DNA from: Pseudomonas sp.
GTDB lineage: Bacteria > Pseudomonadota > Gammaproteobacteria > Pseudomonadales > Pseudomonadaceae
DNA: 40,603 bases
Reading direction: 5' to 3'
Assembly: GCA_022448005.1 (NCBI GenBank)
Contig: JAKUTK010000045.1
Coordinates: forward strand, 1-40,603
Shown here: positions 22,863-30,390 of the stretch, in pieces
How positions within the stretch are numbered: the first letter of the stretch is position 1
Layout: each line of letters opens with the position of its first letter
Notes under the pieces: model-generated
Told to the model about the DNA's origin: nothing
Database searches by the model: none
The model's input: the letters and a program-made list of their open reading frames with translations, nothing else
Translations under genes and position numbers: made by a program

Positions 22863-24243
<1,381 letters not shown>

Positions 24244-24317
24244 TCACATTGCCGCGTGGGTTATGCAGAAACACGCTGGTCACGGGCTTCGTTTGCATGG
24301 ACGCAGCCTGTAGCCGG

Positions 24318-24959
24318 TTACCGCCCCAATTTGCGTAGCTCGTCCGACTCGATCACTCGCGTGCCTTCGGCTTCTTCCAGCGCCAGGCGCCAGAGCGCGC
24401 GCGCCAGCGTGCAGGCCGAGATGCCGCGGTATTTGCCTGGCAGCAGATAAGAGAGCGGGGCGGTAAGGCGTTCGACCGGACGCACTTGCATGCGCGGCCC
24501 CAGCAGCTGCGAAGGTCGCACGATGGTCAGCTGCGGCCAGCCCTGGGCGCGTAGCGCTTGCTCCATTTCGCCTTTGGCGCGGCAGTAGAAAATCGAACTG
24601 GCGGGGTCGGCGCCCAGTGAGCTGACGACCAGCAGATGCCGTGCGCCCAGTTCCCGGGAGCGTTTAGCGAAGGCGACAACCAGATCATGATCGATGGTGC
24701 GGAACGCTTCCTGGCTTCCGGCGTCCTTCAGCGTGCTGCCCAGGCAGCAGAACGCAGTGTCGATACTACCCGACAGCTGCGGCAGTAGCGCCTGCAGCGG
24801 CCCGATCGGGTTCTCGAGCCGCGGATGCCCGGCCAGCTGCTTGCGGCTGGGGGCGAGCACGCACTCCACGGTGGGTTCGTTGAGCAGGCGGTCGAGCAGG
24901 TGCTCGCCGGTTAGCCCGGTGGCGCCGGCAAGCAAAATACGCTGTGGCGTCAAATACAT
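24318..24959 (-). CDS. atypical SDR-family NAD(P)-binding protein
   Basis: A 213-residue Rossmann-fold protein of the atypical short-chain dehydrogenase group (HTATIP2/YbjT-like). The N-terminal nucleotide-binding loop is [14 protein letters not shown] (GxxGxxG). [10 protein letters not shown] and later [13 protein letters not shown] place the Ser and the YxxxK pair of the SDR active site, and [13 protein letters not shown] matches the conserved RP segment of this subgroup. Substrate unknown. The ATG at 24959 has AGGAAG six bases upstream. It is downstream of the MORN-caspase gene on the same strand, with a 98-bp gap. Confidence 0.8.
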
Positions 24960-25057
24960 GGTTTGGCTTCCTGTAACGATCAGTCAGATGGCACTGGCTG
25001 CTGGATGCTCAGCGTCCGCCAGTGTTCGACAACCTGCTCGGGCGCCCATATTTGCGG

Positions 25058-26659
25058 CTACGAAGCTTGATAGTGGTCGGCTTGCTCCCGTTCGGCAACC
25101 TTCGCCTGTGCCAGCGCGAATGCCTGCACAATATCCGGAGTTTCCTGCAAGGCCTCGGCGAAGAGGGCGCGGCCGAAGTAGGTGAAGTCGCTTTCCTCGG
25201 AGCAGCCAAAGGACACTCGGTCGGCGCGAGCTGCGGTAATGATGAGCGTATTGGGGCTCTTCAGTGGTTCGATGAAGCCGCCGGAATAGCAGGCTGAGAT
25301 AACTAGGATCTTGTTGCGTTCGGCGAGTGGCTGCATCAGCGCCGCCAGGTCCGCAGCGGGCAGATCGTCCAGGGCCAGTCGGGGTTGGGTCAGCACCAGC
25401 TGGTGGTCGGCCGAGCCGTGACTGGTCAGGTAGATGAAGATCAGGTCTTCCGGGCCGCTGCGCTCGGCCAGTCGGGCAATCGCGCGCTTGAGGTTTTCAC
25501 GCGTCGCCAGTGGCCGGTCTGCAAGGTGGTCGCGGTGGTTGACGAGGCTTATCTGGCCGCGGGCGGCGAAACGTTCGGCCAAGAAGTCATCGACATAGTC
25601 GACTTCGCGCAAAAACACGCTCTGCTGGCCATCGCCGGCAAGGGTCAGACTGTAGAGTTCAGCTGCCGGAGTGGATGCCCGCACCGCATCAAGGGCGTCC
25701 GCCAGCAGCTCTCCCTGGCGTAGCAGGCCTAGTTCCAGCGGGTCGGCGAGGCGCTTGCCTTGAGTGTTCTGACTCAGGCGGCCGGTTCGCCAGGTGCCGC
25801 TCCTTTGAGTGCCGTCCGCGAGCAGGAGAGTGCCGACTCCATTGAACTGGCCTTCGCGAAAACGGCCACTGTAGCGGTCACCGCCAGGCTGCTGCAGGTT
25901 ACCTTCGCCGTGGTACTGCCAGCGCTTGAAGTGTCCGCCGTAGTGCGTGCCGTCCATGCCGACATATTCACCGCTGCCGCTGAGTTCGCCGTTTTTGAAC
26001 TCGCCTTTCCAGACATTGCCGACAGCGTCTTCGTAGCGGCCCTGGCCATGGAAGAGGTCGTCCTCGAACTGGCCCAGGTAATGCTCACCGTCGTTGCCGC
26101 GGTACAGACCGTCGCCGCTGAGCCGGCCGTCGGTAAAGGTGCCGCTGAATACGCCGCTGGCGTCGCTGCGGGTGCCCTCGCCATCGGGCTGGCCGCTGAT
26201 GAACGCGCCTTCATAGCTGATGCCCTCTGCCTTCTGCAGCTTGCCAGTGCCATGGTACAGGCCATCCCGGAAATCCCCTTCGTAGCTCAGGCCAGGCTCG
26301 TTGTAGCGGCCCTTGCCGTTGAGACTTCCTTGTTCAAAGTGCCCTTCGTAGACGCCTCCAGTGGCGTAGCTGAAGCGCCCCTGGCCATCGAATAAACCAT
26401 CTTTGAACGCGCCTTCGTAGCGATCGCCATTAGCGCCCCGCCAGACACCTTGGCCATGCCACTGCCCGTCCTTGAAAGATCCGATGTAATGGCTGCCGTT
26501 GGGGTAGTCGATACGCCCCTCGCCCTGCAACAACCCATCGATCACCTCGCCCCGGTAGCGGCCACCATCGGGCAGCACGGCGTCGGCGGGCAGCAACGGT
26601 TCGCCATCACCGCAAGCGGTCAGAAAGCAGGCGAGCAGAACTGGAGCGAGGTGGCGCAT
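25058..26659 (-). CDS. MORN-repeat caspase-like (C13 family) lipoprotein
   Basis: A 533-residue predicted lipoprotein: the lipobox LTAC puts the lipid-modified Cys at residue 16, and Gly at +2 argues for outer-membrane sorting. Residues 34 to about 297 are eleven consecutive MORN units of 22-23 residues (each with a Y-x-G-x-F-x-x-G-x-x-x-G-x-G core) plus a partial twelfth. After a linker comes a caspase-fold domain with the His414 motif FIYLTSHGS and the Cys457 motif VISACYSGGF, the His-Cys dyad of clan CD peptidases; annotation pipelines tend to call these C13/legumain-like. The start is ATG 26659; a longer TTG start at 26698 would displace the signal peptide. The last residues (after AQAKVAEREQ) are polar. 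Natural substrate and partners are unknown. Confidence 0.83.
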   Translation of the reverse strand: MRHLAPVLLACFLTACGDGEPLLPADAVLPDGGRYRGEVIDGLLQGEGRIDYPNGSHYIGSFKDGQWHGQGVWRGANGDRYEGAFKDGLFDGQGRFSYATGGVYEGHFEQGSLNGKGRYNEPGLSYEGDFRDGLYHGTGKLQKAEGISYEGAFISGQPDGEGTRSDASGVFSGTFTDGRLSGDGLYRGNDGEHYLGQFEDDLFHGQGRYEDAVGNVWKGEFKNGELSGSGEYVGMDGTHYGGHFKRWQYHGEGNLQQPGGDRYSGRFREGQFNGVGTLLLADGTQRSGTWRTGRLSQNTQGKRLADPLELGLLRQGELLADALDAVRASTPAAELYSLTLAGDGQQSVFLREVDYVDDFLAERFAARGQISLVNHRDHLADRPLATRENLKRAIARLAERSGPEDLIFIYLTSHGSADHQLVLTQPRLALDDLPAADLAALMQPLAERNKILVISACYSGGFIEPLKSPNTLIITAARADRVSFGCSEESDFTYFGRALFAEALQETPDIVQAFALAQAKVAEREQADHYQAS

Positions 26660-26731
26660 GCGGCTATCCAGAGGGGGGGACGCCGCAGTATGCCGCAAAC
26701 TCAGTGGGGTGCGACAACTGCGCCCATTTGG

Positions 26732-27187
26732 TCAGACAACGCAGAGTGCCAGGGTCTCGGCAATGTAAGCAGGCTTCTCCACGCCTTCGATTTCCATCAC
26801 GGCACGCGACTTCAGAAGCCACTGGCCCGGGTTCTTCTCGTAAGCGTCGAGCAGCGTCGCTGCTACGCGAACCCGCGAGCCCACTCTGACCGGCTGGATA
26901 AAGCGCAGGCTGTCGAGCCCGTAGTTGACGCCCATCTTGGTCCCTTCGGGGCGAATCATCAGTTCGTCCATCAACATCGGCAGCAGCGACAGCGAGAGGA
27001 AACCGTGGGCGATGGTCCCGCCGAACGGTGTCTGCGCGGCCTTTTCCGGGTCGATGTGGATGAACTGGTGATCACCGGTGCAGTCGGCGAACTGATCGAC
27101 TCGCTGCTGATCGACGGTGAACCATTCGGAGCGGCCCAGCTCTTTGCCAATGTAATCCTTGAGTTCTGCTGCGGGTACTTGCGGCAT
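26732..27187 (-). CDS. MaoC-family (R)-specific enoyl-CoA hydratase-like protein
   Basis: A 151-residue single hotdog-fold protein. The hydratase-2 motif is FADCTGDHQFIHIDPEKA, with the Asp of GD and the following His as the probable catalytic pair, and GTIAHGFLSLSLLP as the second conserved stretch. This resembles NodN/PhaJ-type hydratases, which act on enoyl-CoA thioesters; the physiological chain length is not evident. The ATG at 27187 is preceded by a good GGAGG at spacing five. It lies 72 bp upstream of the MORN-caspase gene on the same strand and is divergent from the LrgA-type gene. Confidence 0.83.
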   Translation of the reverse strand: MPQVPAAELKDYIGKELGRSEWFTVDQQRVDQFADCTGDHQFIHIDPEKAAQTPFGGTIAHGFLSLSLLPMLMDELMIRPEGTKMGVNYGLDSLRFIQPVRVGSRVRVAATLLDAYEKNPGQWLLKSRAVMEIEGVEKPAYIAETLALCVV

Positions 27188-27313
27188 ATATCCTCCGGCG
27201 TTTGTTGTTTTGTTCGGGTGTGGCGCAACGCTAGATCAGCACGCAGCCGAGGGCGAATCAACCAAGCATGGTTGGTGCGAATGGCGCGCCATAGGCTGAT
27301 CGGAAGCTGCGCC

Positions 27314-27342
27314 GCGTGTCGCGGTGGCGAGATGCTTATAAT
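27314..27342 (+). promoter_or_regulatory. possible sigma70 promoter of the lrgA-lrgB-LON operon
   Basis: A perfect TATAAT at 27337-27342 lies 26 bp before the ATG at 27369. The bases at the -35 position (27314-27319) are a poor match, so an activator or extended contact may be needed if this is real. Confidence 0.4.
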
Positions 27343-27368
27343 TGCGCTCCTTTGCTCTGGAGGCTTCC

Positions 27369-27731
27369 ATGCTGCTACGCGGACTAACCTGGCTGTTGCT
27401 GTTTCAATTGCTCGGCACTGCGCTCAACGTAATGGTGCTGCCGATGTTGCCGGGGCCCATCATCGGCTTGCTGTTGCTGTTCATAGCGTTGTTGGCTCGC
27501 GGCCAGGCGAGCGAATCGCTGCAGGTCGCTGCGAGTAGTCTGTTGCGTTATCTGCCCCTGTTACTGGTGCCGCCCGCCGTGGGCGTGATGGCCTACACCG
27601 GGGCGATTCTCGAGGATTTCTGGGCCATCGTTGGCGTGCTGGTGCTCTCGCTGGTGGTGTCACTGGTGTTTACCGGCTGGCTGATGCAAACGCTGATTCG
27701 CCGTCAGCAACGCAAGGCAGGTCGCGCATGA
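27369..27731 (+). CDS. CidA/LrgA-family holin-like membrane protein
   Basis: A 120-residue inner-membrane protein with four predicted membrane helices and the family motif LPGPIIGLLLLF near residue 32. CidA/LrgA proteins are small holin-like proteins studied in murein hydrolase control and by-product export; which of the two names fits cannot be decided here. The ATG at 27369 has GGAGG five bases upstream, which rules out the longer in-frame start at 27342. The stop overlaps the lrgB start (ATGA), so the two are translated together. The C-terminus ends in a basic RRQQRKAGRA tail, probably cytoplasmic. Confidence 0.88.
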   Translation: MLLRGLTWLLLFQLLGTALNVMVLPMLPGPIIGLLLLFIALLARGQASESLQVAASSLLRYLPLLLVPPAVGVMAYTGAILEDFWAIVGVLVLSLVVSLVFTGWLMQTLIRRQQRKAGRA

Positions 27732-29070: not shown

Positions 29071-30390
29071 CTACTGATAGCGATACAGCAGCATGGCGCC
29101 TGGCAATGCCCAGATCGCAAAGGCCCCGATCAGTCCCAGCGTGGCCGGCAGGATCAGCCACCATATTTTCGGCGACAAGGCCGTCATCGGGGCGCGCCAT
29201 TGCACAAGGGTCAGGCTGGCGGCGCAAATACTCGCCGCCAGCACCGCGCCGGCGATAACGTCGGTTGGCCAGTGAACCCCTAAGTAGACCCGCGACAGCG
29301 CGATTGCGGTGGCCGGCAGTGCGCCCAGTAGCACCCAGGCCAGGCGCAGGCGCGGCGGCTGTCCGCGACCGGCGAGAACGCCCAGCGTGAGAAAGAAGGC
29401 AAAAGCTGCCGAGCTATGACCGCTGGGGAAGCTGTAACTGTGCAGAGGTTCCAGCAGGATTTCCGGCCGGATCCTGCCGAATGTGGCTTTAAGCGCGCCG
29501 TTGGCCAGTGCGGTGCCCAGCAGCGTGAGAACGGCGAAAGCTGCCGCGCGTACCTGTTTAGTGATGATCAACAACAGGCTCAGCAATACGGCGGCCCACA
29601 ATTGGGTCTGAAAATCGCCGGCGCGTGTAACTACGACCATGAAGCGGTCGAACATCGGGCTGCGCTCGCCCTGAACGACCGTCATCAGCCCTTCATCGAA
29701 TTCCACCAGGTAGGGCCAGCCGATAAACAGGCCGATCAGAACGGCGGCGCTGAGGCCAGCCGCAAGCGGCGTGACCCAGCGCATTTGATGCAGGCTGCCA
29801 TGCACTACGCCGCCGACGAGCAGGAGCAACGCGGCGGTGACGAAGCCGGCCTCGCTCCAGAAACCCTCCGGTAAAGGCAGTCGCACGGCAGCTCCCGCTG
29901 CCCAGCCGGGCAGCAGATAAGCCATCGACCAGCCGGCCGCGGCGACCAGGCTGACCAAGAGAAAACGCCCGAACGGCATATCGAGCATGCCAGCGGTTAC
30001 CGGCAGCATGGGCCGCAGCGGGCCGATGAAGCGTCCAACAAGAAGGCTGGCGATGCCGTAACGCTCGAAGTACACCTCGGCGCGATTCAGCCATTCCGGA
30101 TGGTCGCGCAGGCCGCGGATGCTGCGAATATTCTGGTGGTAGCGTCGTCCCAGCCCGTACGACAGCAGATCGCCGAGCAGTCCGCCGGCGTAACCCAAAA
30201 GCAATGTCTCGCCGAGACTGAGTACGCCGCTGCCGGCGACTACCGCGATGGCGAATACCAGCACCGTGCCGGGCATCAGCAACCCCACGATGGCGAGGCA
30301 TTCGAGACAGGCGACGACAAACAGGCTAAGGCCAAGCCACTGAGGGTTTTCAGCTAGCCAACTGGAGAGTGCGGTGAGCCATTCCGGCAT
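29071..30390 (-). CDS. DedA-PAP2 fusion membrane protein
   Basis: A 439-residue polytopic membrane protein joining two families. The N-terminal 200 residues are DedA/SNARE-associated (E at residue 30 in ACLECLAIVG; GRFIGPLRPMLPVTAG near 120), a group tied to undecaprenyl-phosphate or phospholipid flipping. The C-terminal part (about 240-430) is a PAP2 phosphatase with all three motifs: KATFGRIRP, PSGHSSAAF and SRVYLGVHWPTD. Together they suggest a lipid-pyrophosphate phosphatase coupled to recycling across the membrane (inference). The ATG at 30390 has AAGGA about ten bases upstream. Similar fusions occur in other proteobacteria. The 260-bp gap to proA holds the proA promoter candidate and nothing else I can support. 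Confidence 0.88.
   Translation of the reverse strand: MPEWLTALSSWLAENPQWLGLSLFVVACLECLAIVGLLMPGTVLVFAIAVVAGSGVLSLGETLLLGYAGGLLGDLLSYGLGRRYHQNIRSIRGLRDHPEWLNRAEVYFERYGIASLLVGRFIGPLRPMLPVTAGMLDMPFGRFLLVSLVAAAGWSMAYLLPGWAAGAAVRLPLPEGFWSEAGFVTAALLLLVGGVVHGSLHQMRWVTPLAAGLSAAVLIGLFIGWPYLVEFDEGLMTVVQGERSPMFDRFMVVVTRAGDFQTQLWAAVLLSLLLIITKQVRAAAFAVLTLLGTALANGALKATFGRIRPEILLEPLHSYSFPSGHSSAAFAFFLTLGVLAGRGQPPRLRLAWVLLGALPATAIALSRVYLGVHWPTDVIAGAVLAASICAASLTLVQWRAPMTALSPKIWWLILPATLGLIGAFAIWALPGAMLLYRYQ

Follow-up and report, generated by a model that had tools for sequence, protein, structure and literature searches.

What does a bacterium do with a lipoprotein that carries a long array of MORN repeats ahead of a cysteine peptidase? 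The question is raised by one gene in a 40,603-nucleotide stretch of Pseudomonas sp. DNA (GenBank assembly GCA_022448005.1, contig JAKUTK010000045.1), which we call the window, meaning the whole stretch that was analysed. An open reading frame at 25058..26659 had been described, from the sequence alone, as an outer-membrane lipoprotein joining eleven MORN repeats to a caspase-like peptidase, and we confirmed the sequence features behind that description. Its interpretation held in part. The domains are known ones in an unstudied combination: this is a widespread, predicted envelope protein that sets the enzyme domain of a known family on a new support, and its existing database name is C13 family peptidase. 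Our preferred reading, in which our confidence is evenly poised, is that of a membrane-tethered periplasmic cysteine peptidase that would act on envelope proteins and use the MORN array as a rod, with a window copy that is likely impaired.

The two parts of the protein were recovered by Pfam well above the cut-offs: MORN (PF02493) with an E value of 8.7e-34 and 113.8 bits against 22.5, and Peptidase_C13 (PF01650) with 3.8e-34 and 118.8 bits against 22.8. The eleven MORN units are 22-23 residues each and start at residues 35, 58, 81, 104, 126, 149, 172, 194, 217, 240 and 263. The lipobox and the repeat number of the original prediction both stand. The window genome has one match to the MORN-C13 protein and one to PF01650, and a profile search of that genome for PF02493 returned nothing outside this gene. 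The features of the gene are as follows.

25058..26659, minus strand: MORN-C13 lipoprotein gene, ATG start, 533 codons plus TAG
26615..26659, minus strand: predicted signal peptide, residues 1-15, from the sequence and the lipobox pattern in close relatives
26612..26614, minus strand: Cys16, predicted lipid-bearing residue of the lipobox LTAC (residues 13-16), from the sequence
25805..26557, minus strand: eleven full MORN units, residues 35-285, from Pfam and the repeat profile
25766..25804, minus strand: partial twelfth MORN unit, residues 286-298, from strands 285-291 and 294-298 in the relative's model
25688..25741, minus strand: helix joining the rod to the peptidase domain, residues 307-324, from the alignment and the relative's model
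25061..25657, minus strand: Peptidase_C13 domain, residues 335-533, C-terminally incomplete, from Pfam and the relative's model
25418..25420, minus strand: His414, catalytic-dyad position, invariant in the alignments
25289..25291, minus strand: Cys457, catalytic-dyad position, invariant and aligned to the active-site Cys of legumain
25202..25204, minus strand: Cys486, second invariant cysteine (SFGC), whose aligned Cys is found in legumain too
25058..25060, minus strand: in-frame TAG at a point past which the relatives' genes run on, from the sequence and stop-tolerant searches
24980..25057, minus strand: sequence beyond the TAG, still matching the C-terminal tail of the relatives in the same frame, up to a TGA at 24980-24982

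Judged by profile and model, the enzyme domain is of family C13 (legumain/GPI8), clan CD, and not a C14 caspase. PF00656, the C14 caspase profile, was not listed for the window protein at E 0.01, and the NCBIfam EACC1-caspase model NF047832 gave 35.6 bits, so far below its cut-off of 140 that the label caspase-like is a loose one. What stands of it is the fold: the model of L002, a 93% identical relative and not the window copy itself, has the caspase/haemoglobinase fold, in line with the clan CD peptidase that had been predicted. The His414/Cys457 dyad fared equally well. Both residues are invariant in two alignments (A1, 49 rows; A2, 31 rows), as are Gly415, Ser483, Gly485, Cys486, Glu525 and Ser533, together with Pro535 in the 31 intact rows; among the matches listed, the dyad and tail motif patterns fit 240 of 240 relatives. 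His414 and Cys457 align with the catalytic positions of legumain, and from the fold and this invariance they would be expected to cleave peptide bonds in the manner of other clan CD enzymes. Neither of the two outcomes named beforehand as refuting the prediction, a fold foreign to clan CD or a His/Cys pair lost from most orthologs, was seen.

The comparison with legumain also bears on specificity. Counting legumain numbering in the alignment from Cys189, its E187, which we take to have a role at the S1 side, falls on Ser455 of the window protein. The S1 pocket of legumain is described as R44, H45, S216 and D231 (PMC4357240); S216 corresponds to Ser483, D231 to Arg497, which varies among the relatives, and R44 and H45 lie beyond the aligned stretch. 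Since two of the S1-side positions that can be aligned, E187 and D231, differ, a preference for Asn at P1, as in legumain, is unlikely on these alignments. The window protein shares the family and the conserved His/Cys with legumain but is without its C-terminal activation peptide/LSAM domain, and carries MORN repeats and a lipobox on the N-terminal side instead. A redox switch between Cys457 and Cys486 is an idea that we mention here; the counterpart of Cys486 is found in legumain as well.

The lipobox suggests that the protein would be exported and then lipidated at Cys16. It is present in 119 of the 120 close relatives, among the matches listed, and in all 37 further family genomes (29 by the strict pattern, the other 8 by eye). 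The assignment to the outer membrane fared less well, and we rejected it as unproven. Sorting rules in P. aeruginosa are described as loose, with many inner-membrane lipoproteins that do not have the Asp+2 signal of E. coli, with acidic residues favoured in inner-membrane lipoproteins, and with Lys+3 or Ser+4 suggested as inner-membrane signals (PMC6469965). Under such rules the residues after Cys16 in the window protein, Gly-Asp-Gly-Glu, decide neither membrane. Of the 8 N-termini that escaped the strict pattern and were therefore inspected, Asp+2 occurs in 4 and Lys+3 in 2 (loci L275, L282, L284, L285, L278 and L287). From these residues of its relatives, the placement leans towards the inner membrane.

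In the model of the nearest intact relative the repeats form a rod, with high confidence. In a solved MORN protein, a 14-repeat construct makes a dimer of 250-260 Å, which gives ~0.9 nm per repeat and thus ~10 nm for eleven repeats. Such a rod would hold the enzyme off its membrane and may offer a docking or dimerising surface; MORN repeats dimerise in solved structures (PMC7725318). We counted repeats with a profile made from nine of the window protein's own units. The genus count, which joins the 30 best-scoring loci to the other 23, gave 11 units in 49 of 53 genomes, all four exceptions being among those 23 (L246-L249), with the C13 motif and the tail intact despite the fewer repeats. In other Pseudomonadaceae (n=51) exactly 11 matches were found in 46 and 11 by spacing in 50; the 37 further family genomes included here are rows reported in one piece, so that short two-piece versions, which make up most of genus group g6, are counted too low. 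Outside the family, MORN-bearing relatives gave 4-11 units; these are lower bounds because the repeat profile is the window's own. The near-constant repeat number fits a spacer.

What the original prediction could not see is that the end of the gene at 25058 is an in-frame TAG, at a point past which the relatives' genes run on. The window protein is 26 residues shorter than its nearest relative; among the matches listed, 119 of 120 close relatives have 557-560 residues, and the sole shorter one (532 residues) is without the N-terminus and has the C-terminal tail. Stop-tolerant searches extended the C13 match past the stop, flagged "1 TAG", and the window domain covers profile positions 104-243 of 258, where family relatives reach 251-254. 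In the relative's model the missing tail is strand 536-538 and helix 541-551, L002 ending 8 residues past that helix. The tail was in frame in 51 of the 51 other genus genomes examined, from which count G012 was set aside, its gene being split over two frames. At that locus (L214, 939-2536) the two frames overlap, pointing to a gene interrupted in another genus genome. The ratio of nonsynonymous to synonymous substitution rates (dN/dS) was 0.17 between the window gene and L002 and 0.10-0.14 against four other relatives, and private changes numbered 8-12 in the window gene and 16-21 in L002. The rest of the gene is thus under purifying selection, which suggests that the TAG is recent or a base-call or sequencing error. 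As the lost tail comprises the last core strand and a helix, activity in the window genome is likely reduced or absent, and the window copy of the gene likely impaired.

Named matches to the protein are from Stutzerimonas and Pseudomonas, which makes Stutzerimonas the likely genus. Within the genus 53 of 56 genomes had a match (in 48 a single segment of almost full length, in 5 split in two) and within the family 227 of 298, covering 11 of 19 genera; about six of the family matches, in group g5, were weak (1e-38 to 1e-52). Across the order, 52 of 293 genomes contained a C13 domain, whatever its architecture; in the phylum sample the figure was 62 of 398, with 59 above the cut-off, and among 14 control genomes it was 1. 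A profile of the bacterial subfamily gave matches in 34 of the 321 genomes of the class, and in 22 these were strong (at least 287 bits, the window's own genome included). PF01650 was present in 80 of 99 Moraxellaceae genomes, with MORN in none of those examined. Other MORN-less C13 proteins of Proteobacteria have one or several hydrophobic segments as anchors. Beyond the family, the majority of relatives with MORN repeats likewise possess an N-terminal hydrophobic segment of their own (anchor, signal peptide or lipobox). In a quick tree of 66 C13 domains, left after the removal of nine near-duplicates from 75 and with the weak class matches L201-L208 left out, the distribution of MORN takes 3 changes, of which well-supported branches demand no more than 1, and a single MORN origin is thus compatible with the tree. 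In the papers searched we recognised no study of a protein that joins MORN repeats to a C13 peptidase, apart from a table of MORN-metacaspases from aquatic metagenomes (PMC4933709). These resemble the window protein in having MORN ahead of a caspase-fold domain, but that domain is a metacaspase and only 1-4 repeats are listed, against C13 and eleven. A scan of viral contigs, which detects close relatives only, found none. The MORN part of the window protein does match the phage family phrog_7324, of unknown function (E 4.1e-34), which indicates that long MORN proteins occur in phages too.

Most of what is known of C13 enzymes concerns lysosomes, vacuoles and glycosylphosphatidylinositol (GPI) anchoring. 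A lead on the role in the envelope comes from Acinetobacter. In A. baumannii, deleting the peptidase C13 gene abrp is reported in reviews to raise membrane permeability, to slow growth and to affect several antibiotics (PMC10203620, PMC5346588, PMC10838990, PMC10218405), and in that species a peptidase C13 gene is given as predicting early exposure to polymyxin (PMC4872528). The 18 genomes of group g131, which are probably Acinetobacter, have one PF01650 match each, and abrp is therefore likely that gene. Its A. baylyi counterpart has five hydrophobic segments whose charge pattern puts the C13 domain in the periplasm, by prediction, and its model, of middling confidence (predicted local distance difference test score, pLDDT, 73.9), has five long helices, then a helix, then the C13 domain. 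By shared invariant positions the AbrP type belongs to the same C13 subfamily as the window protein, and it likewise has a helix ahead of the domain (200-217 in A. baylyi) and a predicted periplasmic domain; it differs in having five transmembrane helices in place of lipobox and MORN. By analogy with this MORN-less relative, likely AbrP, the role of the window protein would be upkeep of the envelope barrier.

P. aeruginosa itself has a 579-residue MORN-C13 protein (P0319), and PA4016, a hypothetical protein, holds the place of the MORN-C13 gene in the family, a link made by gene order and by locus tags. PA4016 lies between PA4015 (PhaJ4 hydratase) and PA4017 (PMC3406104, PMC3398322); this position and the 579-residue protein make it the likely orthologue. 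It appears in a table of the envelope proteome (PMC7835679).

If the envelope peptidase is real, envelope upkeep would have a further class of protease, in the form of a periplasmic C13 peptidase that is common in Pseudomonadaceae and related to an Acinetobacter gene already tied to membrane permeability, and MORN repeats would gain a testable function in bacteria. The near-constant eleven repeats make the ruler hypothesis directly testable, with natural absences and shorter versions as ready comparisons. We also put forward, tentatively and as rather doubtful, a wider proposal: that a Proteobacterial class of membrane-tethered periplasmic C13 peptidases guards the envelope barrier on interchangeable holders, namely a MORN rod of almost constant length serving as a ruler in the Pseudomonadaceae periplasm, the five-helix bundle of AbrP in Acinetobacter or a single anchor in other groups.

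Several points weigh against the tethered envelope peptidase. For no member did we meet a measured activity, substrate or cellular location. We presume abrp to be the one C13 gene of Acinetobacter, and the A. baumannii AbrP candidate is without MORN, is 38% identical over the aligned C13 part and sits on another branch of the tree. The reviews of abrp disagree as well, deletion raising drug susceptibility according to PMC10203620 and PMC10218405 and reducing it according to PMC5346588. A transposon insertion in PA4016 is reported as attenuated in worms only in a ΔexoU background, and a second allele as not attenuated (PMC3406104). No match was found in 3 of the 56 genus genomes and 71 of the 298 family genomes, so the gene is not needed everywhere. 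As for the rod, G043 and G001 have 10 units, G025 and G009 have 8, and L064 of the family has 9; a strict ruler is hard to square with those four shorter versions in the genus.

The neighbourhood of the gene was compared between loci, with two adjoining genes in the window.

26732..27187, minus strand: MaoC-like hydratase, upstream neighbour, likely the PhaJ4/PA4015 counterpart by gene order
24318..24959, minus strand: NAD(P)-binding SDR-like protein, downstream neighbour, from a profile match and locus comparison

The order MaoC-C13-SDR, with lrgA, lrgB and a gene for a Lon-substrate-binding domain, recurs in 9 of the 10 Pseudomonadaceae loci compared; at L168 only C13-SDR is retained. Of the 20 window genes compared, C13 alone had counterparts (E 1e-8) in 10 regions outside the family and in 5 shorter Moraxellaceae loci. 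We therefore set aside a function read from the neighbours, gene order being conserved within the family only, and agree with the earlier remark that MaoC and SDR do not reveal the role. In the Moraxellaceae loci L178 (the same place as L079) and L134, one gene upstream of C13 is what we presume, from its sequence, to be a UppP-like gene.

Family genomes without C13 give a further view of the locus. Fifteen were examined (the three genus misses and 12 more), and 10 had an SDR match, two of them weak. MaoC and SDR adjoin in G051 with C13 absent between them (L217, 1340-1501), only part of MaoC is left at the SDR locus of G037, and neither MaoC nor lrgA lies within 1500 bases upstream of SDR in G052; G064, G068, G071, G079 and G086 (L219-L223, three genera) have SDR and lrgA and neither MaoC nor C13. 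We infer that these absences are losses. Absence of C13 within a kept gene order indicates that the gene is dispensable in places and often goes together with MaoC, and the keeping of SDR without C13, with lrgA in 7 of 8 loci, indicates that neither SDR nor lrgAB depends on it.

How the repeats and the enzyme work could be read differently. The earlier proposal that the MORN array binds membrane lipid and so lays the peptidase on a membrane surface is favoured by the MORN name and the older MORN literature, and TbMORN1 is reported to bind individual phospholipids and to co-purify with phosphatidylethanolamine (PMC7725318). The same source, however, describes TbMORN1 as binding neither membranes in vivo nor vesicles in vitro, and recasts MORN repeats as protein-protein modules, with structures that show dimers and protein-protein contact. 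With the tether already supplied by lipidation here, and by their own N-terminal hydrophobic segments in most MORN relatives outside the family, we find lipid positioning doubtful and consider it improbable. The family assignment also brings to mind a transamidase like GPI8/PIGK, which would cleave a protein of the periplasm and transfer it to an amine in place of water, so attaching proteins to the envelope. At legumain position 215, ligase-prone enzymes have Asn or Asp (Asp in PIGK), which lowers protease activity (PMC9604545); caspases have Val, Tyr, Ala or Ile there. That position, Ser215 in legumain, is Val482 in the window protein and Thr in the profile consensus, so that the ligase signature is absent and hydrolysis would be likelier than transfer. 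There is also no known acceptor, and no neighbour is conserved beside C13 in the regions examined outside the family. A transamidase is in our judgement an unlikely reading as well.

The locus could instead concern cell death, or the gene could be dying itself. An effector of death or anti-phage defence, which on a signal would kill or arrest the cell, perhaps with the neighbouring holin-like lrgAB genes, would agree with a weak PADLOC "caspase" match (E 2.5e-5, residues 370-501) and with lrgA/lrgB, which share its block in 9 of the 10 family loci. Against it, the family loci examined hold the gene at the same place and with a single architecture, the lipobox places the protein outside the cytoplasm, lrgA is still present in 7 of 8 loci without C13, the EACC1-caspase score falls far short (35.6 against 140), and the viral contigs held no close relative; we regard such an effector as very improbable. 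With PADLOC only weakly positive and the viral scan without a close relative, a defence system or mobile element was rejected as a candidate. A better case exists for a window gene that no longer functions at all, a pseudogene that is being lost, as in other lineages. The in-frame TAG takes off a conserved tail, the gene of G012 lies in two frames, and the gene is absent beside kept neighbours in G051 and absent together with MaoC in G064, G068, G071, G079 and G086. The dN/dS of 0.17 and the smaller number of changes specific to the window than to L002 argue the other way, and a base-call error or partial activity are alternatives; we hold the dead gene to be a real possibility, somewhat short of even. 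The tethered peptidase, with its likely impaired window copy, remains our preferred reading.

Around the gene, scans of 24200-27500 returned 0 promoters and 0 terminators, and in the window as a whole Rfam gave 0 matches and ARAGORN 0 tRNAs. Elsewhere in the window, at 29071-30390 on the minus strand, a VTT/DedA domain and a PAP2 phosphatase domain are joined in one protein, plausibly a lipid-carrier flippase and its phosphatase in one chain.
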